Assembly (NCBI GenBank): GCA_003290465.1
Contig: CP030759.1
Location: 2,864,572 to 2,928,571, forward strand
Direction: 5' to 3'
DNA length: 64,000 nucleotides
Origin: Candidatus Sumerlaea chitinivorans
GTDB taxonomy: Bacteria; Sumerlaeota; Sumerlaeia; Sumerlaeales; Sumerlaeaceae
A model generated the notes under the pieces. The model was not told where the DNA came from. It was given only the letters and a program-made list of their open reading frames with translations, and did no database searches. The position numbers were made by a program, and so were the translations under genes. Below are positions 8,209-20,938 of this stretch, one piece after another (position 1 is the stretch's first letter; the number at the start of each line of letters is the position of its first letter).

Positions 8209-9228
8209 ATGAGTGACCATTCAACGATAGCGACACCCAGCGGCTTAGCCGCAGATAATGAGTTCAGAGCCCGCCCCACCTCTTCTGTTTCCATGACCGA
8301 ACTCGCCGAGCCGGCCTATCGCCCTTGGTTAGCGCGCTTCACCAAGACGACGGCGGGAATGACGTTCCTCCTGATTGTCGTAGGAGCCCTTGTCACCGGC
8401 AATAAGGCGGCTCTTTCGGATCCGACATGGCCAGCTTTTGTGGGCCAGCCTCTCCCAACCGCACGAACGTTTGTGGGCGGTCTAATTTACGAGGATTCGC
8501 ACCGTGTGCTTGCTGGTCTCACCGGCCTTCTCACGCTTATTCAGGCCATCATTCTTCAGCGCGTCGAGCCACGTCGGCGCGTCCGCACCTTGGGGTGGGC
8601 CGCATTCGGTACAGTTGTCGCGCAAGCTCTTCTGGGTGGGCTCATCATTCATTCGATGCGCAATCCCTGGGTCTCGGTTGTCCACGGCATCCTTGCCCAG
8701 TCGTTTCTGGTGTTGATGACCGCCATTGCCTTTATGGAAAGCCGGGCGTGGCTCGCAGGACATGCGCCCACGTTTGCAGCCGGGGCCTCTGGTCTCGCCA
8801 AGCAACTCCGCGCCGCCACTATCATTGCATTTTTGCAGCTCATCTTAGGTGCTGGAGTTCGCCACTCGCAGACCGGCTTTGTCTCGCACCTGACCTTTCA
8901 CATCGCCGGAGGCGTGATTTTAGCAGGCCTTATTCTGTTTTTGACCATCCGCGCCTTTGGCCAGTTTGCCGAGCACCGCTTTTTGACTCGTGCCCTTGGA
9001 AGCCTTTCGGCGGCCGTGGTCATTCAAATGCTCCTCGGGGCAGCAGCGGTCTTTGCGAACCGGGCACGACCCGAGCCTGAAGTCGCGCAGCTTCACCACG
9101 TTGTCGTCTCCACCGGCCATGTCGCACTCGGTGCAGCCATCCTCGTTGGCCTTCTTCTCACTGCGATGGCGGTGCGGCGCCGACTTCATGAGGGCAATCA
9201 AGGGAGGGAGGGGGACAAGCCATCATGA
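8209..9228 (+). CDS. ctaA: Heme A synthase (CtaA/COX15)
   Basis: 339 aa membrane protein with about eight hydrophobic segments after a soluble N-terminus of about 45 residues. It carries the family's His/Glu features: EDSHR in the first loop, VVHGILAQ, HLTFHIAGG and a final HHVVVSTGH. CtaA oxidises the C8 methyl of heme O to make heme A for aa3-type cytochrome c oxidase. It is the first gene of the oxidase maturation operon and overlaps ctaB by 4 bp (ATGA). The N-terminal extension before the first membrane span is slightly long. Confidence 0.9.
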   Translation: MSDHSTIATPSGLAADNEFRARPTSSVSMTELAEPAYRPWLARFTKTTAGMTFLLIVVGALVTGNKAALSDPTWPAFVGQPLPTARTFVGGLIYEDSHRVLAGLTGLLTLIQAIILQRVEPRRRVRTLGWAAFGTVVAQALLGGLIIHSMRNPWVSVVHGILAQSFLVLMTAIAFMESRAWLAGHAPTFAAGASGLAKQLRAATIIAFLQLILGAGVRHSQTGFVSHLTFHIAGGVILAGLILFLTIRAFGQFAEHRFLTRALGSLSAAVVIQMLLGAAAVFANRARPEPEVAQLHHVVVSTGHVALGAAILVGLLLTAMAVRRRLHEGNQGREGDKPS

Positions 9229-10145
9229 GCACGTACGCACTCGATTCCCATGCCAAGGCAGAGGCTCCCCCAGTAGCTGCTGCTCCATCTTGGCTTGCGG
9301 ATCTGACCGAACTCTTCAAGCTGCGTATCGTGGCTTTCACCGCCTTCACGGCGGCGACGGGTTTTGCCGTGGCATCCCCGGCAGAGGTTGATTATTCCGG
9401 GCTGTTCTGGGCGGTTCTGGCTTGCGTCCTTGCCGCTGGAGGTAGCAGTGCGCTGAATCAGTACCTTGAGCGCGACACAGACGCACTCATGGAGCGGACT
9501 CGACACCGCCCCCTACCTGCCGGCCGAATCGCCCCGCGCGGCGCACTTTTCTTAGGTTTCCAGCTCGTCGTTGCGGGGGTGACGCTTCTTGCCCTCACGA
9601 CCAATCTTCTCGCTGCTGCGCTGCTTCTCGCTACCGTAGTATTGTACGTCTGGGTCTACACACCGCTCAAGCGTCGTACCGCACTTTGCACGATTGTTGG
9701 CGCCGTTCCCGGTGCGATGCCTCCTTTGGTTGGCTGGGCGGCAGCGACGGGAAAAATCGAGTTCGGCGGCATTGTCCTCTTTGCCATCATGTTTCTTTGG
9801 CAGCTTCCGCACTTCATTGCGATCGGTTGGGTTTACCGCGAGGATTATTTGCGTGGGGGCTTGCGGATGCTGACTCATCTGGATGCGGACGGGATTCTCG
9901 CGGCGCGCCAAGCTTTCCTCTATTCTGCCGCTTTGTTTGTGGTCGGCGCAATGCCGTGTGTCGCGCATCTAGCCGGAATGACGTATCTACTTGGGAGCTT
10001 CCTTTTGGGTGGTGCGTTCTTGGTGCTCAACCTGCGGTGGAATCTTCAGCCTTCGCGAAAGCATGCGTACGGAGTCTTCTTCGGTTCTCTAGCCTATCTC
10101 ATCCTACTGTTTTCGTTGCTTTTGGCAGATCGGGTTGGAGCGTGA
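9225..10145 (+). CDS. ctaB: Protoheme IX farnesyltransferase (heme O synthase)
   Basis: 306 aa UbiA-family membrane prenyltransferase. The allylic diphosphate-binding motif NQYLERDTDALMERT has the expected Asp spacing, and a second polar loop (YREDYLRGGLRML) follows. It adds a farnesyl group to heme B to give heme O, the substrate of the preceding CtaA. It is translationally coupled on both sides: ATGA overlap with ctaA and GTGA overlap with the next ABC gene. Length and topology are normal for CtaB/CyoE. Confidence 0.95.
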   Translation: MSTYALDSHAKAEAPPVAAAPSWLADLTELFKLRIVAFTAFTAATGFAVASPAEVDYSGLFWAVLACVLAAGGSSALNQYLERDTDALMERTRHRPLPAGRIAPRGALFLGFQLVVAGVTLLALTTNLLAAALLLATVVLYVWVYTPLKRRTALCTIVGAVPGAMPPLVGWAAATGKIEFGGIVLFAIMFLWQLPHFIAIGWVYREDYLRGGLRMLTHLDADGILAARQAFLYSAALFVVGAMPCVAHLAGMTYLLGSFLLGGAFLVLNLRWNLQPSRKHAYGVFFGSLAYLILLFSLLLADRVGA

Positions 10146-11242
10146 CACTGAATTCTCACATTTCAGCGGGCTCGAGTAGAGAAGGGCAATCCGCCCGAGA
10201 TTTTCCTGAGAAGCTGACCGATCAGCCACGGCCAACCTCCGGAGATTTCAGCGAATCGTCTCCCTCTTCTCATGCGTTGGAAGTCGAGCGGATCCGCTAT
10301 GCCTACGGCAACTCGTTGGCGCTCGAAGAGGTGTCTCTGCACGTTGAGCAGGGCGAGATTTTTGCTCTTTTGGGGCCGAATGGCAGCGGGAAGACGACAC
10401 TTTTTCGGATTCTCACCACCCTTTTGCCGCTTCAGTCAGGAGCGGCCCGCGTCGCTGGGCATGATCTTGCACACGAACCCGCTCAGGTGCGGCGCGCAAT
10501 TGGCGTCGTCTTCCAAAGCCCAAGTCTCGACCGCAAGCTCACGGCACGCGAGAACTTGATCTTTCAAGGGCGGATGTACGGTCTGCACGGCGGCCTGCTG
10601 GCGCGACGGGTAGGTGACGTGCTGGACGTGGTGGGTTTGACCCAGCGTGCCCATGAACTCGTAGAACGTTTCTCCGGCGGCATGCAGCGGCGTCTTGAGA
10701 TCGCAAAGGCATTGTTGCACGAACCGAAGGTTCTACTTCTCGACGAGCCCACCACAGGGCTCGACCCCACGGCCCGTCGCGAAGTGATGGAGCACTTGCA
10801 GAAATTGAAAGCCACACGCGGCGTCACGTCGGTGTTGACCACCCATTTAATGGAAGAAGCCGATGCGTGTGACCGGGTGGCAATCCTCGATCGCGGCCGG
10901 TTGGTCGTCGTCGGGCCGCCCGACGATCTCAAACGATTCGTAGGCCAAGAGGTGGTGCTCCTCATTTCCCCGCGTCCGGAAGAGCTCCGCTCGCTGATCG
11001 CAGAACGGTTTGGGATTCTGGCAACGGTCAGCCAAGAAGAATTGCGGATCGAGGTTCCCATAGATTTGGAAGGCGGAGCACCTCGCCTGTTGGTCCAGAT
11101 AGTCGAGGCGTTTCGTGGGCTTGTGGAATCCGCGCGGCTCGGTCGGCCGACCCTCGAGGACGTGTTCTTTCACTTCACCGGCAAGCGACTGATCGAAACT
11201 CAGGAAGCGAGTAGTGACCCTCGCGAAAGGAGCGCTTCATGA
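10142..11242 (+). CDS. ABC transporter ATP-binding protein in oxidase maturation operon
   Basis: 366 aa from the GTG at 10142, chosen because it overlaps the ctaB stop as GTGA; the open frame extends far upstream inside ctaB but that part is a shadow. Walker A GPNGSGKT, signature FSGGMQRR, Walker B VLLLDEPTTGLD and the H-loop THLMEEAD are all present. The type is the DrrA/CcmA-like subfamily for ABC-2 exporters. About 40 polar residues precede the ATPase domain. The partner permease follows with a 4-bp overlap. In this operon the transporter probably serves oxidase assembly (heme, copper or lipid handling). The cargo is not known. Confidence 0.88.
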   Translation: MTLNSHISAGSSREGQSARDFPEKLTDQPRPTSGDFSESSPSSHALEVERIRYAYGNSLALEEVSLHVEQGEIFALLGPNGSGKTTLFRILTTLLPLQSGAARVAGHDLAHEPAQVRRAIGVVFQSPSLDRKLTARENLIFQGRMYGLHGGLLARRVGDVLDVVGLTQRAHELVERFSGGMQRRLEIAKALLHEPKVLLLDEPTTGLDPTARREVMEHLQKLKATRGVTSVLTTHLMEEADACDRVAILDRGRLVVVGPPDDLKRFVGQEVVLLISPRPEELRSLIAERFGILATVSQEELRIEVPIDLEGGAPRLLVQIVEAFRGLVESARLGRPTLEDVFFHFTGKRLIETQEASSDPRERSAS

Positions 11243-12036
11243 GCACCGTGTCAGCATCTTGCTTCTTGGATGAAATGTTAGCCGCTTGGACACTGTGCGA
11301 GCGCGAGGTTGTGAGGTTTTTGCGCCAACGGGCACGCGTCCTTGCTGCGATCGGAACGCCACTACTTTTTTGGGCCGTCTTAGGGTCTGGCCTTGGGCGA
11401 TCTTTCCGTGTGGACAACGGCGGAGCCTCGGATGGTTACTTGCGCTATTTCTTCCCCGGTGCCATCTTGATGACCGTCCTTTTCACCGCCATCTTCTCTG
11501 CGATTTCACTCATTGAAGATCGTCGCGAAGGATTCATGCAGGGCGTACTGGTGGCGCCTGTGTCGCGTTTTGCCATTGTGCTTGGTAAGGTGTTGGGCGG
11601 AACGCTGGTGGCAACCGCCCAAGGGGCACTCATGTTGGCTCTTGCTCCGTTTTGTGGGTTCCGTCCGTCGCTCGGGGGCGCCGCTCTTGCTGTTGGGGCG
11701 ATTCTCCTTACCGCCTTCGCAATGACGTGCGTGGGCGTGGCCTTTGCGTGGCGGATTGCCTCCGTACAGGGCTTTCACGCTGTGATGAATCTCGTTTTGT
11801 TTCCAATGTGGCTGCTCTCGGGAGCCCTTTTCCCTGCCTCTGGCGCAAGTGGCTGGATACGATCTCTCATGGCGATTGATCCCGCGACCTACTATCTTGT
11901 GCTTCTTCGAGCTGGTTTAGGGGATTCCGCTCCGTTCGACCCCGCTCTTAGCGCCGGGATTGGCATCGTTTTCGCCGGAGCCGCTTATCTTACCGCATGG
12001 AGGATGGCATGTCGAACGAAACAAATTCCGCAGTAA
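11239..12036 (+). CDS. ABC-2 type permease partner
   Basis: 265 aa with about six membrane segments and the ABC-2 (DrrB-like) arrangement, including an LIEDRREGFMQGVLVAPVSR cytoplasmic loop typical of the family and a MWLLSGALFP segment. It overlaps the ATPase gene by ATGA and the SCO gene by 28 bp, so the three are produced together. The complete transporter would be a dimer of this permease with the ATPase dimer. Substrate not determinable. Confidence 0.85.
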   Translation: MSTVSASCFLDEMLAAWTLCEREVVRFLRQRARVLAAIGTPLLFWAVLGSGLGRSFRVDNGGASDGYLRYFFPGAILMTVLFTAIFSAISLIEDRREGFMQGVLVAPVSRFAIVLGKVLGGTLVATAQGALMLALAPFCGFRPSLGGAALAVGAILLTAFAMTCVGVAFAWRIASVQGFHAVMNLVLFPMWLLSGALFPASGASGWIRSLMAIDPATYYLVLLRAGLGDSAPFDPALSAGIGIVFAGAAYLTAWRMACRTKQIPQ

Positions 12037-12677
12037 CGCCGCCCCGCTTGCCCATTGCGAATTGGCTCACATGGGTCGCTGTTGCCGTGGCTCTTCTCGG
12101 GCTTGGGGGACTCGCCGTTTATCAGAGAGTGGTGCGCCCCGCCCCTCAGCTGGAGATCTATGGGGAAGTGCCACCTTTTCAATTCCTGAACGAGCGTGGG
12201 GAGCCCATGACCCGAGACAACTTTTTAGGGACGCTCTGGGTCGCGGATTTCATTTTCACGCGCTGCGGCGGACAGTGCCCCCGCATGACGGCCTCAATGG
12301 TCGAACTGCAGAAATGGCTCAACCAAGAACGGATCGAGGATGTTCGGCTCTTTTCGCTGAGCGTGGATCCTGAGTATGACACCACGACCACACTTCAGGA
12401 GTATGCGTTGCGCTTCAATTACGATCCGTGGCGGTGGAGCTTTCTTACCGGCGACAAGCCAACGATTTATCGCTTTATTCGCGAGGGGTTCAAGCTTGGC
12501 TTAGAGGACGCGCCTCCGCCGGGCACGGCGCCGGAGAATGAGCCGATCATCCACAGCAGTCGGTTCGTGCTTGTGGACCGAAAAGGCCAAATTCGCGGGT
12601 ATTTTGATGGACTCGACCCCGAAGAAATGAAAAAGTTGCGTGAGGCAATTCGTATTTTGCGGAGGGAAAAGAATTAA
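12009..12677 (+). CDS. SCO1/SenC family copper chaperone
   Basis: 222 aa from the ATG at 12009, preferred over 11997 because GGAGG ends 5 nt before it. One N-terminal membrane anchor (about residues 19-38) is followed by a thioredoxin-fold domain with the copper-binding CxxxC pair Cys86 and Cys90 (FTRCGGQC) and the distal His182 (IIHSSRF). SCO proteins deliver copper to the CuA site of cytochrome c oxidase. Its place after ctaA, ctaB and the ABC pair supports this role. Confidence 0.92.
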   Translation: MSNETNSAVTPPRLPIANWLTWVAVAVALLGLGGLAVYQRVVRPAPQLEIYGEVPPFQFLNERGEPMTRDNFLGTLWVADFIFTRCGGQCPRMTASMVELQKWLNQERIEDVRLFSLSVDPEYDTTTTLQEYALRFNYDPWRWSFLTGDKPTIYRFIREGFKLGLEDAPPPGTAPENEPIIHSSRFVLVDRKGQIRGYFDGLDPEEMKKLREAIRILRREKN

Positions 12678-12683
12678 GCAGTC

Positions 12684-13124
12684 GTGACGCCTGAATCCTT
12701 AACCTTCTTACCAACTCTGAACGCCTGCTTCAACGCGAGCTCCGCCGCGCTGGTTTTGTTGGCGTGGTGGGCCATTCGACGTGGAAACAAACCGCTCCAC
12801 ATTTGGGGCATGTGCGCAGCTCTTGTCAGCTCGGCGCTCTTCCTCAGCGGGTATCTCATTTACCATGCTTATCATGGGACGACGCGGTTTGAGGGACCAC
12901 CGGCAATACGGTTCATTTACTTAGCCATCCTACTTACCCATACGCTTCTTGCCATGGCGGTGGTGCCTCTGGTTCTTGGTACGGTGGTGTTGGCGATTCG
13001 GCAGCGCTTTGACCGACATAAGCGCTTGGCGCGCATCACTTTACCCATCTGGCTCTACGTTTCGGTGACAGGAGTGATCATCTACTGGATGCTCTATCAC
13101 TTAGCTCCTGCACTGCGGGGCTGA
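12684..13124 (+). CDS. DUF420 membrane protein
   Basis: 146 aa, GTG start, about four membrane segments. It contains the conserved histidines of DUF420 (YHAYHGTTRF, LLTHTLLA, DRHKRLARIT), a family often found beside cytochrome oxidase assembly genes. It begins 6 bp after the SCO stop and closes the operon. Function is not established; heme or copper handling is a guess from context. No T-rich terminator was seen directly after it. Confidence 0.8.
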   Translation: MTPESLTFLPTLNACFNASSAALVLLAWWAIRRGNKPLHIWGMCAALVSSALFLSGYLIYHAYHGTTRFEGPPAIRFIYLAILLTHTLLAMAVVPLVLGTVVLAIRQRFDRHKRLARITLPIWLYVSVTGVIIYWMLYHLAPALRG

Positions 13125-13385
13125 GACGTTGCCGTTAATAGAGTTATGTTTGGATCTCCGTGGCTGGGCCCTTGCGTACGGGAAGGCTTTCGGGCCCCAG
13201 TCTCAAACCCGCACGGTGGTCAGCGGATCCATCGGTGAAGAAGAGAAAGGGGGGGAACCACAGCAGAACCTCTTGCGCCCCGCACCCTCCGTTTTACTTT
13301 GAATTGTCCGTTGGCACGATGTTAGCTTCCTCACGAAAGGCAGTGGTAAGCCGTTCAATTCACTTACAATGTGGGAGGTGCGGAA

Positions 13386-14036
13386 ATGAATTCCGCTCGA
13401 GTCATTTCAATTCGGTCTCACCGCCTCGCCTTCACCCTCATCGAGTTGCTCATCGTCGTTGCAATCATCTCGGTTTTGGCGGGAATCGCCATCGTGAACT
13501 TTTTAGAAGCCCAGACGCGCTCGAAGGTTTCGCGTGCCCGCGCTGACATCAAGAGCATCGTCACAGCTCTCGAGGCCTATGCTGTGGACAACAACGCCTA
13601 TCCAACCTATCATTACTCGAATGTTCCGCAGGCCGCGTTGGAATTCCACATTGGCGGGACTGTGCCGGGGTTCGGGATGCCAGATCCTAACTGGAATGGG
13701 GCCAACCCGCTAACCACCCCCATCGCGTATATCTCGAGCATGCCCACCGATCCATTCGCATCGCACAAGACTGGGCTGCCACCGGAAGTGCGCGAATACC
13801 TCTACGTCAATTGGGGTTATGCGGTTCAAGCGATGCCCTCCGATCCCCATACCCCGACGTTTATGTATGCCTATCAGCATTACGGGCCGTATCGCTTGCA
13901 CAGCCGTGGTCCGGATGGCCAAGGGCCTGACTCTGGGATCCCCTACGACCCGACGAATGGCAGTGTGAGTAAGGGCGATATCACGTTTGGGCCAAATACA
14001 GGGTTCGATCGCTTCGTTCCGTTCCCATCGTCCTAA
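13386..14036 (+). CDS. Type IV prepilin-like protein (pseudopilin)
   Basis: 216 aa from the ATG at 13386, with GGGAGGT 6 nt upstream (an in-frame GTG at 13371 is less likely). The prepilin motif RLA|FTLIELLIVVAII has the key Glu5, but the residue before the cut is Ala instead of the usual Gly. The long helix (FLEAQTRSKVSRARADIKS, EAYAVDNNAYP) is followed by a globular part with PYDPTNGSVSKGDI near the end, also found in the second prepilin at 62200-62784. It is probably a minor pilin or type II secretion pseudopilin. No other pilus genes are nearby; it has its own terminator. Confidence 0.85.
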   Translation: MNSARVISIRSHRLAFTLIELLIVVAIISVLAGIAIVNFLEAQTRSKVSRARADIKSIVTALEAYAVDNNAYPTYHYSNVPQAALEFHIGGTVPGFGMPDPNWNGANPLTTPIAYISSMPTDPFASHKTGLPPEVREYLYVNWGYAVQAMPSDPHTPTFMYAYQHYGPYRLHSRGPDGQGPDSGIPYDPTNGSVSKGDITFGPNTGFDRFVPFPSS

Positions 14037-14475: not shown

Positions 14476-15747
14476 ATGCGACAAGTGGATCTGAGTATTC
14501 TCATACCGATGCCGTCCAATGCTGTGCAAACCTGTGAGCTCCTCGAGCGGCTTCCAATTGCATGTGCGCGCTTGCCGGAGGGCGTGACTTGGGAAGTCGT
14601 GGTCGCCCTCCCCACTCATGGCGCGCCATCTGTAGAATCGACTCTCGCCAAGTTACCGGGAGGGCAAGGCTATCGCGCGAATGGTGGCTACGGCGCTTCC
14701 CTACGTCAAGCCCTCGAGCTCGCCCGCGGCGAGTGGATCCTTACCATGGAGAGCGGGCTTGCCCACAGCCCCTTCATTATTCCAGAGCTATTTGCTCGGC
14801 GCGAAGACAACGATTTAGTCGTTGCATCGCGTTATACAAAGACCGGTTATGACAACGCCGGATGGTTCCGCAGCTTCGTTGCCCGGTGCTCCAACCGCTT
14901 GGTCGCCACTCTTCTCGATTTACCTGTGCACGATCTCTCGAGCAGTTTTCGACTTTACCGGCGCCGAGTGTTCGATGAGGCGATGCCGGAGCATGAGGGA
15001 TTTGGAGCGCTGCTTGAAGTACTGGTGCGATCGTTTGCGGCGGGATTTCGTGTGGCGGAAGTACCATTTCATTATTTCCCGATCCACCGGGGTACAGATT
15101 CGACGTTTTGGCAGGTAGCGCGAGAGTACTTGGCGGCGCTCAGGCCTCTGTGGCGACTGCGCAATTCGATCGATTGTGCGGACTACGACGAGCGGGCTTT
15201 CCGAAGCCGGATCTGGTTCCAGCGCTCGTGGCAGCGGTGGCGTTATCATGCGCTTGTCGGAATGGTGCGCGAATGCCCGCGCATACTGGATATTGGTTGT
15301 GGCTCCAGCCAAGTGCTGGAAGGGCTGCCCCAAGCCGACGGCTGCGACATCCGCTTGAACAAACTCCGCTACAAGCGAGGACGCAGTGGGGCTCTCGTCC
15401 GAGCGAGTGTCTTCGATTTGCCTTTCAAAAGCGAGGCCTACGACGCAGCAATCTTCTCGCAGGTCATCGAGCACTTGCCCCGGAATCCTAAGATTTTGCA
15501 AGAAGTTGTGCGGGTCGTGCGGCCTGGCGGGATTGTTGTTGTCGGAACGCCAGATTATGCCACGTGGTGGACAACCATCGAGAAGATCTACGGGTTTGTG
15601 CATCCCACCGGCTATGCGGACGAACACATCACCCACTACACCTTCGAGACGCTCAAGGCAGAGGTGGAAGGGCTCGGGTGTGAGTACATGGATCACGCCT
15701 ATGTTTATGGCGCCGAGCTCATCATGAGATTCCGCAAGAATGGGTAA
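14476..15747 (+). CDS. GT2-like glycosyltransferase fused to SAM methyltransferase
   Basis: 423 aa with two parts. Residues about 1-225 align with DPM1-like GT2 enzymes (ILIP start, G-GA-LRQAL, SSFRLYRRRVF, EVPFHYFPIHRGTDS). Residues about 265-423 are a class I methyltransferase: motif I ILDIGCGSSQVL, an acidic D in GCDIR, and FSQVIEHLP ... VVRPGGIVVVGTPD, as in Methyltransf_11. The GT2 part is unusual: where relatives have a DxD-type M-D-A-D-L-S-H segment, this one reads M-E-S-G-L-A-H, and the DDGS loop is missing, so sugar transfer may be lost. It likely works on surface glycans or lipids, near the GT genes on the opposite strand. About 440 bp upstream hold only the prepilin terminator and no clear gene. 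Confidence 0.75.
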   Translation: MRQVDLSILIPMPSNAVQTCELLERLPIACARLPEGVTWEVVVALPTHGAPSVESTLAKLPGGQGYRANGGYGASLRQALELARGEWILTMESGLAHSPFIIPELFARREDNDLVVASRYTKTGYDNAGWFRSFVARCSNRLVATLLDLPVHDLSSSFRLYRRRVFDEAMPEHEGFGALLEVLVRSFAAGFRVAEVPFHYFPIHRGTDSTFWQVAREYLAALRPLWRLRNSIDCADYDERAFRSRIWFQRSWQRWRYHALVGMVRECPRILDIGCGSSQVLEGLPQADGCDIRLNKLRYKRGRSGALVRASVFDLPFKSEAYDAAIFSQVIEHLPRNPKILQEVVRVVRPGGIVVVGTPDYATWWTTIEKIYGFVHPTGYADEHITHYTFETLKAEVEGLGCEYMDHAYVYGAELIMRFRKNG

Positions 15748-15816: not shown

Positions 15817-17976
15817 TCAGAATTTCAAAATTGCTGCAAGTGGCTCGTTGTCGCCGACGCTCGCCAGCTCCACTTGCGCGAGCGATTGAATCTGTTCCAA
15901 ATTGATAAGACCGCTCAGGTCGAGAATGCGCCCGCGGAAGAGTAAGAACAAGTCCGGGAATTCGCGTCCCGCATCGCCGTAGGTGGTGTGCTTTTCAATA
16001 AACTCGCGCAAATGGCTGAGCACACTTTGCTTTGTGCCTGTCATCGTGTCGCCTCGACGAAGCTGTAAGCGAATGATCCCCTCGCGGTCAATGACACGCA
16101 CTTGGTTGGTGCGGCGTTTGACAAGTCCGGCGAGCATGGGTTGGACAGTCTTCACATGGTAAACCAGCAAGCCGCCGACGCTTGCTACCTGCTCCACGTG
16201 CTCAATCTCTCCACGTACACTCTTGCGCACGCGCTGCTCCAACTCCTCCTCGCCGAGAGCGGCTTTAGCCAAGTCACGGGTGCGAAGCTCCGTAGTCCCT
16301 GTGGCGGACGCACGCAGAATGTTTTTCTGCGCATCAATTTCAATCTCCACCTCGACCGATTGAGGATCGGCCCCCATGCGCACCACCGCTTCCTCAGCTT
16401 CGCGGCGGATTTGAAGGATGTCCTTTTCCGTCGGATTGATGACTGTCTTTTCAATCGAGTCGCGAACCAGTGCGAGCGCCACACCGATCGCGGAGATCAC
16501 GGCGGAGTTTGGCGCAATCTCAAAGGGAAGCCCCATGCGCTTCGCGGTGAAGGGTACGATAGCGGAGGCTCCACCCCCGCCGCCACTGAGGGTGAGCAAC
16601 TGTGGGTCGAGCTCATAGTCCTCGATCATCTCCTCGACCACCCGACGCACTTTCACCGTAGCTTTTTCCAAGAGTTCTTCAGCAAGCCCCTGAGCATCCC
16701 GGCGGACGAAGCGGCACAGTGCCGCCATTGCCGCAGTGATCGGCTCACGGTTGCCGTGGGCTGCATCCCCTTCCGGCACCAATCCGAGGAAGTTCGAAGC
16801 ACAGGTGGGCGTAACCGAAACAAGCCGTCCATCCTCCGTCCGAATGCGCAGATAATCGTCGGGATCTCCCGGCAGCGGCTGGAAGCGCTCCACCTTCAGC
16901 TCCCCACTGAGGTCCTTTTGGAATGCGCTATATTCGACGCCGGCAATGTGGGCGCTTCGTGGTCCCACATCTTCGATATGGTGATCGCTCGCCCGGGGCA
17001 AGCTTCCACCGGCGACTCCCACCGTTCGCACGTCCAGCGTGCGGAGGTACAGACGGTGTCCCCCCACGACCGCGCTCTTGACGAGCGACTTTCCGTTGCG
17101 AATGGCGCTGATGTCCGTGGACGTACCGCCAACTTCCAGAAAGATGCCATCGGTGATGCGTGCATACATGAGCGCGGCCGCCACGCCTGCCGCTGGACCA
17201 CTCAGCATCGTCAGAATGGGGCGCCGTCGCATCTCGGCGATGTCCATGATTCCGCCATCCGAGCGCATGATCATCAGAGGGGCCTTGATTCCCGCTTCGC
17301 GCACACTCGCTTCGGTCATGTCGGCCGTCTCGAGCATCTTCGGAAGCATCGAAGCGTTGATCACGGCCGTACGTGTGCGCGCCTTCAGCCCGTACAGCTG
17401 TGAGATGTGGCATGCTGCCGTCACCAGAATGCCCCGCTCGTTGCAATGGCGCACCACCATTTCCTCGTATTGGGGATCCTCGACGCTGAAGGCCGCGCTT
17501 GCCACGATCACTTTGGCGCCCTGCGCGAGAAGTTCATCGACCGCCTGCCGAATCTGCTCCTCGCGGAGGCCATCGGTGACGTCAATGAACGTGTGGAAAG
17601 TGTGCAAGAACCGGTTGGGTGCCAACTCGATATCGCCAATGCGAGTTTGGGAGCGCGCGCGCCGTTTGCCCATTCCCCCCGCCATGCCTACGATCCCCAC
17701 GGGGGCCACGTCGCCTTCCAGCAGCGCGTTCGTGGCTTGGGTGGTTGAGTGCGCAATCAGCACGATTTCGTCGGATTGAATTTTGCCTTCTTCCAGCAAC
17801 TTGAAGAGCGACTCCACAATGCCGGCGGCAACACCACGCGGATGTCGGTGGGTGGTGGGGACTTTGACCGTCGCCACAATCTCCAATGTGGCGGCGTCAA
17901 TGGCGACCGCGTGGGTGAAGGTTCCTCCAACGTCAATTCCAATCCGAATTCGGCGCGTGCTACTCGCTTGAGTCAT
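15817..17976 (-). CDS. Hydantoinase/oxoprolinase subunit A (HyuA-type)
   Basis: 719 aa with the HyuA order: N-terminal ASKHA-type nucleotide-binding motif IGIDVGGTFTHAVAID (about residues 12-27), central MIMRSDGGIMD and LSGPAAGVAAAL, a GGTSTDIS phosphate loop, and a long C-terminal part. HyuA proteins hydrolyse cyclic amides with ATP, usually paired with HyuB. No hyuB gene is adjacent. The start is 3 bp after the GT4 stop, so the two are co-transcribed. The true substrate (5-oxoproline, hydantoin or another lactam) cannot be told. Confidence 0.85.
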   Translation of the reverse strand: MTQASSTRRIRIGIDVGGTFTHAVAIDAATLEIVATVKVPTTHRHPRGVAAGIVESLFKLLEEGKIQSDEIVLIAHSTTQATNALLEGDVAPVGIVGMAGGMGKRRARSQTRIGDIELAPNRFLHTFHTFIDVTDGLREEQIRQAVDELLAQGAKVIVASAAFSVEDPQYEEMVVRHCNERGILVTAACHISQLYGLKARTRTAVINASMLPKMLETADMTEASVREAGIKAPLMIMRSDGGIMDIAEMRRRPILTMLSGPAAGVAAALMYARITDGIFLEVGGTSTDISAIRNGKSLVKSAVVGGHRLYLRTLDVRTVGVAGGSLPRASDHHIEDVGPRSAHIAGVEYSAFQKDLSGELKVERFQPLPGDPDDYLRIRTEDGRLVSVTPTCASNFLGLVPEGDAAHGNREPITAAMAALCRFVRRDAQGLAEELLEKATVKVRRVVEEMIEDYELDPQLLTLSGGGGGASAIVPFTAKRMGLPFEIAPNSAVISAIGVALALVRDSIEKTVINPTEKDILQIRREAEEAVVRMGADPQSVEVEIEIDAQKNILRASATGTTELRTRDLAKAALGEEELEQRVRKSVRGEIEHVEQVASVGGLLVYHVKTVQPMLAGLVKRRTNQVRVIDREGIIRLQLRRGDTMTGTKQSVLSHLREFIEKHTTYGDAGREFPDLFLLFRGRILDLSGLINLEQIQSLAQVELASVGDNEPLAAILKF

Positions 17977-17979
17977 GAA

Positions 17980-19104
17980 TTACTTCCCAAGAATCCTTTG
18001 ATAAGCAATTAAAGTTTCTCTTGCAGCTTTCTTCCACGAAAATGCTTTTGCGCGCGCAAGTCCTTTTTCGCGTAAAAGCGCACGGAGCGAGGGGTCTCCC
18101 AACACGCGAGCGATCGCTTGCGCGAGGGCGTCCACGTCGGTTGGGTCCACCTGCAGTGCCGCATCCGCCACCACTTCCGGGATCGAGCTGGTGTTTGAGG
18201 TGACCACCGGCGCACCGCACGCCATGGCTTCCAATGGCGGAAGGCCAAAACCTTCATACAACGACGGAAATACGAAAACGTCGCAGAAGTTCAGAAGCTC
18301 GACGACTCCGTCATCGGACACATGTCCCAGAAAACGGATCCGAGAAGAGGCACGAGCGCGCTTGGCCGCCTCAAAAATCCCTTCATAAAGCCATCCCCGA
18401 TCACCCGCGATGTAAAGCTCGTGCTCGGGAAACTCGTGTGCGATCCTGTCGAACGCTTCGATGAGCCGGGCCACGTTTTTCCCCGGTTCCAGCGTCCCCA
18501 CAAATAAGACATACGGTGCGTTGAGTCCACGTTTGGGCAAGTTGGACGCTTCTCGCGGAGTACCCAACGGGCGAAATCGTGCGTGAACGCCGTTGTGCAC
18601 GACCACCACCCGGTCGGCCGCCTCCGGAAAAAAGCGGATAATCTCGCGCTTGGAATGCTCGCTAACTGTCAGGATCAAGTCCGCCAGCTCAACCGTCCGG
18701 CGCGTCATGGCGTACCAATACTGACGTCGCAACCACGGGCAGCGCTCCGGATGAACGTGGTAGGATAAGTCGTGGATCGTGACCACGTAGGGGCAGACCT
18801 TGCGTGGCGGCAGAAAGTTCGAAAACCCATGGAAAAGATCGTATCGCTGCCGACGCAGCTCCGACGGGAGAAATGTGTACTCGTAGAGCAGGCGAGCGGT
18901 CCTTGCCTGCTCAGCCAGCCCCCAAACCTTTACGCGGTAGTTGGGGGCGTCAAACTGGTAATTGCGTACGTTCTGGGGTGAGCAGTAAAGTGTGAACGTG
19001 TCCGAAGCGTTCTCCTGAAGGATGGCTTCTACCAGCCCATGGATATACTGCCCCACGCCGCTCTTTGCGGCCCGCACTTGCATGGCATTCCACGCGACGT
19101 TCAT
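17980..19104 (-). CDS. Glycosyltransferase family 4 (GT-B)
   Basis: 374 aa. The N-terminal part has SGVGQYIHGLVEAI for acceptor contacts. The C-terminal part has the nucleotide-sugar domain: FVGTLEPGKNVARLIEAF, IRFLGHVSDD, and the E-x7-E motif YEGFGLPPLEAMACG. It is a retaining, probably cytosolic enzyme for building surface polysaccharide or glycolipid. It reads leftwards into the hyuA-type gene 3 bp later. Upstream is a terminator that separates it from the GT2 gene. No good Shine-Dalgarno was seen before the ATG. Confidence 0.9.
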   Translation of the reverse strand: MNVAWNAMQVRAAKSGVGQYIHGLVEAILQENASDTFTLYCSPQNVRNYQFDAPNYRVKVWGLAEQARTARLLYEYTFLPSELRRQRYDLFHGFSNFLPPRKVCPYVVTIHDLSYHVHPERCPWLRRQYWYAMTRRTVELADLILTVSEHSKREIIRFFPEAADRVVVVHNGVHARFRPLGTPREASNLPKRGLNAPYVLFVGTLEPGKNVARLIEAFDRIAHEFPEHELYIAGDRGWLYEGIFEAAKRARASSRIRFLGHVSDDGVVELLNFCDVFVFPSLYEGFGLPPLEAMACGAPVVTSNTSSIPEVVADAALQVDPTDVDALAQAIARVLGDPSLRALLREKGLARAKAFSWKKAARETLIAYQRILGK

Positions 19105-19255: not shown

Positions 19256-20800
19256 TTATTGTTTTTGCTCCGAGGACGCCTGCTTGGGGGGCCACTTGCC
19301 CAGCTTGCGATTGATTTCCTGTCGCCGCTTGAGGGCCTGCAGCCGTGCGTGGTTCTTGTTGCGGATCTTCATCCACGGATCGCGCGTGACGTCCGTGTTG
19401 TCGGAGTGCCGACGATAGCGGTACAGGACTTCATGGACCCGGTCCACGTCGTACTTCTCGCCCACCTTCAGCACCATGTCGTAATCTTCACCGAAGTTGC
19501 CGTAGTTCTCCTCGTCGTAGAGCCCCATTTCTTCCAAGACGACCTTGGGGAAAACACGGAGGGCGCCCGCGCCGTCGCGCCGCAGGATCTGGTTGCGAGT
19601 GTAGCCCTTATGGGTGACGGGCTCGATCCCCGGGATCGGATTGCGGTTTTCGTCCATTAGCGTGTAGTACGAGATCGCCAGTCCGCATTTCGGATGGCTC
19701 TCCAGATGCGCGATCATTTTTTCGAGCGTCGTCGGGACGTACTCGTCGTCCGAATCCAACTGGCAGATGTACTTGCCGCGTGCCGCCCGAATGCCATCGT
19801 TGAGGGCCGAAGCGATGCAATTGCCGGTGCCCCGAATCAGACGCACCCGTGGATCTTTCTTTGCGTATTCTTGAACGATCTCGAGCGTGCCGTCCGTCGA
19901 GCCATTGTCTACCACAATCACCTCGAAGTCTTTGAACGTTTGCTCGAGGCAGCGTTCGATCGCGTTGCCAATGTACTTCGCGCGATTTAGCACGGGGATG
20001 ACCACACTTGCCATCACCGGATAGGGCTCTTTCGGATATGGCACATACTCGGTTTCGTGGTCAATGTATGCCCCGCGCCGCTTGAGCATCTCCTCGAAAA
20101 CCGACGTGACCTCTTGCTCGAGATCCGGCGGATAGAAGACGTAGGAGAAGCCCCCGAACTTGCCCTTGCCCGGGGAGTGAAGCGCCCCCGGCGCACTCTC
20201 GGCTTGCTCAGGCACGACCACCGAGTACAGCACCTCGTCCACAAGCTCCAAAGTGTAATTGTCGCCAAGTTTGAGCTCGACGTCATACTCGGCGGCGTGG
20301 ACCAGATCCTCGCGGAAACCACCGATCTCGCGGAGTTTGTCGGCGCGGTAGACTTTGATGTAGCCGAAGTCAAAGCGCTCGTGAATGCACCCCTCGTGCG
20401 GATAGAGTTGAACCTTTTCCTCTTTGCCGTCGGGCTTGACCTCAGCATAGCACGAGTACGCTACGGCCGCTTGTGGGTGTTGATCCAGATAGGAGGCGAA
20501 GCGTTCGAGCGCTTGTGGCTTCAAAAGTACCCCCTCGGGAAGCGGCATAATGTAGGTCGCCCCGCTTTCGCGCATTGCCCAGTTCATCATTTTCGCCAGT
20601 GTGGTGAGACCCGTCGGGCCTACCACAAAGCGATCATCTGCCAGCTCGGCAGCAAGTGTTTTCGCGGCTCCAGCGTCGCTTGCTCCCTCAAGCAGGTAGC
20701 ACTTCCAGTCGCGCTCGGTTTGGGGTTTGAGTGCTTCGAGCGTCCTGCGGGTTAGATCAGTGACCTTTCCCACCGGAAACAGCACAGCAAATTTGCTCAT
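19256..20800 (-). CDS. Two-part glycosyltransferase family 2 protein
   Basis: 514 aa from the ATG at 20800, chosen for GGAGGG 7 nt upstream; the longer frame starts at a GTG inside that site. Residues about 1-240 resemble a GT2-like domain (KFAVLFPVGKVTDLTRRTLE, MPLPEGVLLKPQALERF). Residues about 265-500 form a clear GT-A domain: VIPVLNRAKYIGNAIERCLEQ, VVDNGSTDGT, the DxD motif CQLDSDDEY, and EDYDMVLKVGEKYDV. It is probably cytosolic, adding sugars to surface glycan. It forms its own unit ended by the terminator at 19145-19192. Confidence 0.88.
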   Translation of the reverse strand: MSKFAVLFPVGKVTDLTRRTLEALKPQTERDWKCYLLEGASDAGAAKTLAAELADDRFVVGPTGLTTLAKMMNWAMRESGATYIMPLPEGVLLKPQALERFASYLDQHPQAAVAYSCYAEVKPDGKEEKVQLYPHEGCIHERFDFGYIKVYRADKLREIGGFREDLVHAAEYDVELKLGDNYTLELVDEVLYSVVVPEQAESAPGALHSPGKGKFGGFSYVFYPPDLEQEVTSVFEEMLKRRGAYIDHETEYVPYPKEPYPVMASVVIPVLNRAKYIGNAIERCLEQTFKDFEVIVVDNGSTDGTLEIVQEYAKKDPRVRLIRGTGNCIASALNDGIRAARGKYICQLDSDDEYVPTTLEKMIAHLESHPKCGLAISYYTLMDENRNPIPGIEPVTHKGYTRNQILRRDGAGALRVFPKVVLEEMGLYDEENYGNFGEDYDMVLKVGEKYDVDRVHEVLYRYRRHSDNTDVTRDPWMKIRNKNHARLQALKRRQEINRKLGKWPPKQASSEQKQ

Positions 20801-20938
20801 GTTTTTACCCTCCACACGTTTGCTAATCTCTTAGAAAGAGTTTCGGGGCGGTTGGTTGCCGAATCTCCTCTCGTTGTGCGCAACCCAAAAGTCAACGCAC
20901 GGCGCTTGCAAGCAAGATCGGCATGGCCAAGTCTGGCG

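Follow-up and report, generated by a model that had tools for sequence, protein, structure and literature searches.

A glycosyltransferase-methyltransferase fusion of Candidatus Sumerlaea chitinivorans with a lost donor site and a candidate role in lipid-phosphate docking

The fusion gene and its surroundings

The window, a stretch of 64,000 nucleotides from Candidatus Sumerlaea chitinivorans, whose genome is one 3.29-Mb contig, carries a gene in which a GT2-type glycosyltransferase (GT) half is joined to a SAM-dependent methyltransferase (MT) half. The fusion, claimed earlier from the letters of the DNA, is borne out by an open reading frame of 423 codons with two Pfam domains, Glycos_transf_2 at residues 69-168 (E 4.4e-9) and Methyltransf_11 at residues 271-356 (E 4.6e-15). 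The gene and its parts are as follows.

14476-15747, + strand: GT2-methyltransferase fusion gene, ATG start, 423 amino acids and a stop codon at 15745-15747 (open reading frame and orthologues)
14476-15165, + strand: GT half, about residues 1-230, with a predicted DPMS-like GT-A fold (AlphaFold2 model, VIA-align to 5mlz)
15166-15270, + strand: linker, residues 231-265, SIDCADYDERAFRSR..., the slowest-evolving segment within the window's family
15271-15744, + strand: class I SAM methyltransferase core, residues 266-423, motifs intact (PF08241, E 4.6e-15; motifs; 1vlm and 2gs9)

Linker and core are taken together below as the MT half (about residues 231-423). In the fusion alignment D236, Y237 and S244 of the linker are invariant, and the linker around ADYDERAF, together with homology to both domains over the full length, places the window protein in the fusion group; it shares 38-74% identity with the nine others of a ten-sequence alignment. 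Among solved structures, the N-terminal half comes closest to PfDPMS (5mlz, E 1.2e-9) and to ArnC, and the C-terminal half to small methyltransferases of class I. Structure prediction of both halves, which had been proposed as a check, gave a confident AlphaFold2 model from an alignment of 52 sequences (pLDDT 89.5, pTM 0.87), in which the predicted GT half has a GT-A fold with interface helices and superimposes on 5mlz with a VIA-align Z of 25.0 over 222 residues (rmsd 2.6), and the predicted class I MT half matches 1vlm (Z 20.6, 182 residues, rmsd 2.5) and 2gs9 (Z 19.5).

When gene neighbourhoods were compared, the neighbours differed between lineages and no pathway shared with the fusion was found. 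Facing the fusion in convergent orientation (window 15817-19104, - strand) are a gene of the hydantoinase/oxoprolinase type and a GT4 gene, and this arrangement, which recurs in a related genome (G029, L061), is the sole conserved one seen beside the window gene. In a second phylum, a gene of D-Ala-D-Ala carboxypeptidase type (Peptidase_S11 in L072), belonging to one cluster, was seen in six of nine regions compared in the order of genome G344 (L072-L080), and a PMT_2 match in a neighbour at L004 stayed below the cut-off (E 1.9e-4) and is given no weight. Several other genes of the window were characterized by reading their translations. An oxidase-assembly-like cluster (9225-13124, + strand) appears to hold a protohaem farnesyltransferase, an ABC exporter pair, an SCO1-like protein and a DUF420-like membrane protein, and a prepilin-like protein with the N-terminal stretch FTLIELLIVVAIISVLAGIA is encoded just upstream of the fusion (13371-14036, + strand). 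A 519-residue protein (19256-20815, - strand) reads as two GT2-type halves, the first with no obvious DxD (PLPEGV) and the second with DSDDE, and could possibly be another part-dead glycosyltransferase.

Distribution of the fusion

Searches covered two phyla, that of the window and a second one reached through L004. In the former, a match spanning both halves was found in nine of 40 genomes, namely in five of the eight genomes of the window's own family (f1, the window included), three in f11 and one in f14; a stand-alone GT relative with 35-38% identity occurs in four genomes of f7 and f8. In an even sample of 395 genomes of the second phylum, 10 have a match at E<=1e-20. Within one of its orders the figure is 37 of 41 at E<=1e-25 (one of them, G457, a contig-end fragment with the MT half only), within the class of that order 43 of 148 genomes, these 37 included, and in two other classes 1 of 17 and 1 of 8, each being the centre genome itself. 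The intact fusion is thus near-universal in that order, the order of G344, yet rare in the sample of its phylum, which suggests that it has a core role there. No full-length relative was found in the viral and plasmid collections searched. In all, 54 fusions were collected, five from f1 and 49 from outside it, with a readable DxD position in 48 of the outside GT halves.

Loss of the donor site

Three stretches of the GT half that are conserved among relatives are changed in the window protein.

14596-14640, + strand: place of the DDGS/DGGSxDGT nucleotide loop, residues 41-55, lost (alignment; D45 in 0/5 of f1, 46/47 outside)
14746-14766, + strand: MESGLAH, residues 91-97, in place of MDADLSH, DxD lost (D92/D94 in 1/5 of f1, 48/48 outside)
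15076-15123, + strand: acceptor loop and start of interface helix 2, residues 201-216, basic residue 203 lost (Arg in 0/5 of f1, 47/48 outside)

Both losses that had been read from the single sequence hold in the alignment: residues 91-97 are MESGLAH where DxD is expected, and the stretch that is VDGGSxDGT in relatives is VALPTHGAPSVE here. Glu 15, between beta1 and alpha1, is likewise absent from all five family members and present in 46 of 47 outside sequences. A search for other proteins with this fusion revealed that the loss is common to the family, with the DxD place occupied by ESG in the window, EAG in G029, ETG in G030 and QPG in G033; G035 keeps DLD and has lost the DDGS loop. The DxD is intact in the four stand-alone GT relatives as well. 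The occurrence of EAG, ETG and QPG in three related genomes shows that the change is neither an accident of a single genome nor a sequencing error, and the motif LTMxxGLAHSPFIIP is common to the four DxD-less members. A replacement acidic pair was sought in the local stretch and rejected, residues 88-99 of G033 (ILTMQPGLAHSP) containing no acidic residue and the window, G029 and G030 only E92.

Outside the family, the motif table contains one protein, of G038 (L022), without the loop Asp and the acceptor-loop Arg; it has lost the DGGS loop, keeps DPD and has a long GT branch (terminal GT/MT ratio 2.12), and its lineage may possibly represent an independent early stage of decay.

The functional meaning of these positions can be read from PfDPMS, in which D91 holds the metal and D39 the guanine, E12, R202 and K208 form a loop clamp, and the lipid phosphate is held by S135, R117 and R131, as described in PMC5526996. 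Residues were mapped by profile alignment to PfDPMS, with numbering counted with a tag offset of 22 and checked against the residues named in that paper: position 15 corresponds to E12, 45-50 to 37-42 (which contains the base contact D39), 92 and 94 to D89 and D91, 97 to H94, 119 to R117, 132 to R131, 136 to S135 and 203 to R202. Taken together, the residue roles and the mapping indicate that the donor side is gone in the family, and at the level of sequence a loss of normal donor binding by its GT half is well supported.

The lipid-phosphate side

The two arginines that align with ligands of the lipid phosphate are kept, as a lipid-binding remnant predicts.

14830-14832, + strand: R119, the aligned counterpart of the lipid-phosphate ligand R117 in PfDPMS, kept (5/5 of f1, 48/48 outside)
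14869-14871, + strand: R132, the aligned counterpart of the lipid-phosphate ligand R131 in PfDPMS, kept (5/5 of f1, 48/48 outside)

More broadly, SR...R, D153, R159, E181 and E195 of this side are kept in the family, R119, R132, R159 and E181 being invariant, as is H97, the counterpart of the sugar contact H94. The third phosphate ligand is variable, with A, A, S, T and S at position 136 in the five members (Ala in the window), and K178 of PfDPMS, which contacts the sugar and the phosphoester, aligns with a Gly in the window protein. Of the positions at which at least 95% of 52 outside sequences agree, the four DxD-less members retain five of 18 on the donor side (residues 1-96) and 23 of 28 on the acceptor side (97-200), and in the acceptor loop (201-216) they retain one of five; the Fisher p of 7e-5 for the donor/acceptor split is a guide only, since the borders were set after an earlier list of positions had been viewed.

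Evolutionary rates and selection

The family is monophyletic in a tree of 48 rows (UFBoot 99), and G035, with its DLD, branches first within it, from which it follows that, if this DLD is ancestral, the nucleotide loop and the clamp were lost first and the DxD later. On a fixed topology the ratio of GT to MT tree length is 4.7 inside the family and 0.94 outside, and the pairwise distance ratio is 3.55 inside (95% column bootstrap 2.80-4.47) and 1.14 outside, the lowest of the ten family pairs (2.71) exceeding the highest of 1,076 outside pairs (2.14); these distance ratios leave aside the rows of G457 and G467, the stand-alone GTs and the five of 1,081 outside pairs with an MT identity of at least 95%. 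A separate DPM-like enzyme with intact motifs is present in all five family genomes and, taken as a control, is 63-83% identical among them, against 31-62% for the GT half. Within the family the pN of the GT half is 0.25-0.50 and its pS 0.68-0.81, and although the codon test is weak with synonymous sites near saturation, pN well below pS indicates that the GT half is not drifting freely; judging from these substitutions, it is under purifying selection though fast. The acceleration extends to all segments of the GT half, the acceptor side included (four DxD-less members against the rest, 0.151, versus 0.045 for the MT half), though these segment-wise tree lengths rest on short alignments and are rough.

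The methyltransferase half and decay in the other direction

The MT half had been claimed to keep its SAM motifs, and it does: motif I, the acidic residue after strand 2 and the E of VIEHL, which mark class I SAM methyltransferases, are all found, with LDIGCGSS at residues 271-278, D291 and E332 in the window protein. Within the family the MT halves are 73-91% identical.

The reverse situation occurs in the same fusion at L021 (G015) and L060 (G115), where MT motif I is lost and the GT half intact. The motif I losses concern D272 and G276 (LYIGCSSS and LNIGYSVS, respectively), and the GT halves retain the DxD as well as both the Asp of the nucleotide loop and the Arg of the acceptor loop. In each of the two, the terminal branch is longer for the MT half than for the GT half, with GT/MT ratios of 0.25 and 0.35. 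Set against the window's family, these two cases, each of them one genome and the G015 gene lying at a contig end, indicate that either half can go while the fusion stays. In G441 the later MT motifs are changed.

Interpretation

The reading that we prefer, which we hold at about even odds, is that the methyltransferase of the window protein is active and that the pseudo-glycosyltransferase fused to it has been retained to dock lipid phosphate. The N-terminal part would descend from a polyprenyl-phosphate sugar synthase of the DPM1/AglJ type. In the ancestral fusion the GT half would have charged polyprenyl phosphate with a sugar taken from a nucleotide donor, and the MT half would have methylated a product. 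The donor side, made up of nucleotide loop, DxD metal site and acceptor-loop clamp, would then have been dismantled stepwise in the window's family and the lipid-phosphate side kept. Transfer from a nucleoside-diphosphate sugar would presumably have ceased in this protein, the polyprenyl-phosphate sugar would be made by the cell's separate DPM-like enzyme with intact motifs, and the GT half would dock this product and present it to the SAM-dependent MT half, whose activity and substrate are putative. The original prediction, that the GT half may now only bind a glycolipid for the methyltransferase, is supported in part, by the lost donor site, the extension of this loss across the family, the conserved MT half and the kept arginine pair; docking and presentation themselves are inferred.

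What weakens the docking reading is that the acceleration affects all GT segments rather than the donor side alone, a pattern that also fits general decay. Further points against it are the variable position 136, the Gly in place of K178, the DLD still present in G035, gene neighbourhoods that suggest no common pathway and the residual activity of PfDPMS variants altered in the DxD. The GT half could accordingly be a structural relic, redundant with the separate DPM-like enzyme and kept for folding of the methyltransferase, for dimerisation or for membrane placement, with no specific ligand, an explanation to which we give roughly one chance in four. The presence of the intact DPM-like paralogue in all five genomes and the high conservation of the MT half alone agree with it. 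The losses are uneven, however, falling on the donor side far more than on the acceptor side, and the four invariant charged residues are not obviously needed by bare folding. The amphipathicity of the interface helices makes no distinction here, since dead-site and intact members overlap.

It is rather unlikely, and less to be expected than a relic, that the GT half is still a glycosyltransferase, either metal-free or using a donor other than a nucleoside-diphosphate sugar. Bacterial GT6 (NXN) and GT14 are GT-A fold enzymes that work without a DxD (PMC3961637), the D89A and D91A variants of PfDPMS keep residual activity (PMC5526996), and the invariant H97 and the motif shared by the four DxD-less members agree with this reading. 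Metal-independent GT6, however, retains a conserved basic residue that holds the diphosphate (PMC3961637), whereas here the nucleotide-loop Asp, the loop Glu and the acceptor-loop Arg have gone as well in all five members, a joint loss of nucleotide loop and clamp that argues against continued transfer, and the replacements of the DxD vary. An artefact of sequence errors or a pseudogene is hardly credible: of the other four family genomes, three correspond to records titled as metagenome-assembled genomes, but open frames in five genomes, the same losses in independent assemblies, a pN far below pS and the confident fold rule this out.

Extending the docking reading to the whole fusion, one may tentatively propose that a polyprenyl-phosphate sugar synthase became a cradle of a lipid-linked sugar for the methyltransferase, and that the halves decay reciprocally, each being able to hold the substrate for the other; this broader scheme is well short of an even chance. 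If true, the fusion would offer a natural series in which either half can hold the substrate for its partner while no longer catalytic itself. A pseudoenzyme with one substrate site retained and another abandoned can teach what a domain does besides catalysis. In this gene family, dead-site members can be compared with intact relatives and with the half-decayed forms of G035 and G038, so that the idea of a dead glycosyltransferase turned to lipid docking is testable with few proteins. For annotation, a GT2 label in this family is not to be taken as sugar transfer.

Comparison with known systems

A search of the open-licence literature, which does not prove absence in print, found no paper on this fusion or on a DPM-type pseudo-GT2. 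Among NCBIfam models, none of the best 25 of 41 families for the 52 aligned members covers the fusion, GT and MT models matching separately, and the window protein reaches the curated cut-off of none of the best 25 of 34. The closest known enzyme is PfDPMS (PDB 5mlz, 5mm1, 9ep0; GT2), the best match of the fusion-family profile (E 4.9e-41), which shares with the window protein the fold, the lipid-phosphate Arg pair and the His after the DxD; unlike PfDPMS, the window protein lacks the DxD, the nucleotide loop, the loop Glu and the acceptor-loop Arg, and has a methyltransferase where PfDPMS has a transmembrane domain. The models of AglJ (TIGR04182) and of dolichyl-phosphate hexose transferases (NF041391) are each matched by 50 of the 52 aligned members at E<=1e-5 (best E 3.6e-37 and 4.2e-24, respectively), whereas the window protein matches AglJ weakly (E 0.0035). 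With the class I SAM methyltransferases of Methyltransf_11 (1vlm, 2gs9 and the DVU_1556 family) it shares the fold and the SAM motifs; the DVU_1556 model is matched by 48 of the 52 aligned members, whereas the window protein remains below its cut-off (39 of 155 bits) and is fused to a GT2 half. It differs from GT6 in having ESG (elsewhere in the family also EAG, ETG or QPG) rather than NXN and in having lost the clamp counterpart Arg 203. A DPMS-type domain joined to another envelope enzyme is also found in mycobacterial Ppm1, a polyprenol-phosphate mannose synthase fused to an acyltransferase, but there the DPMS domain is active and the partner is not a methyltransferase.
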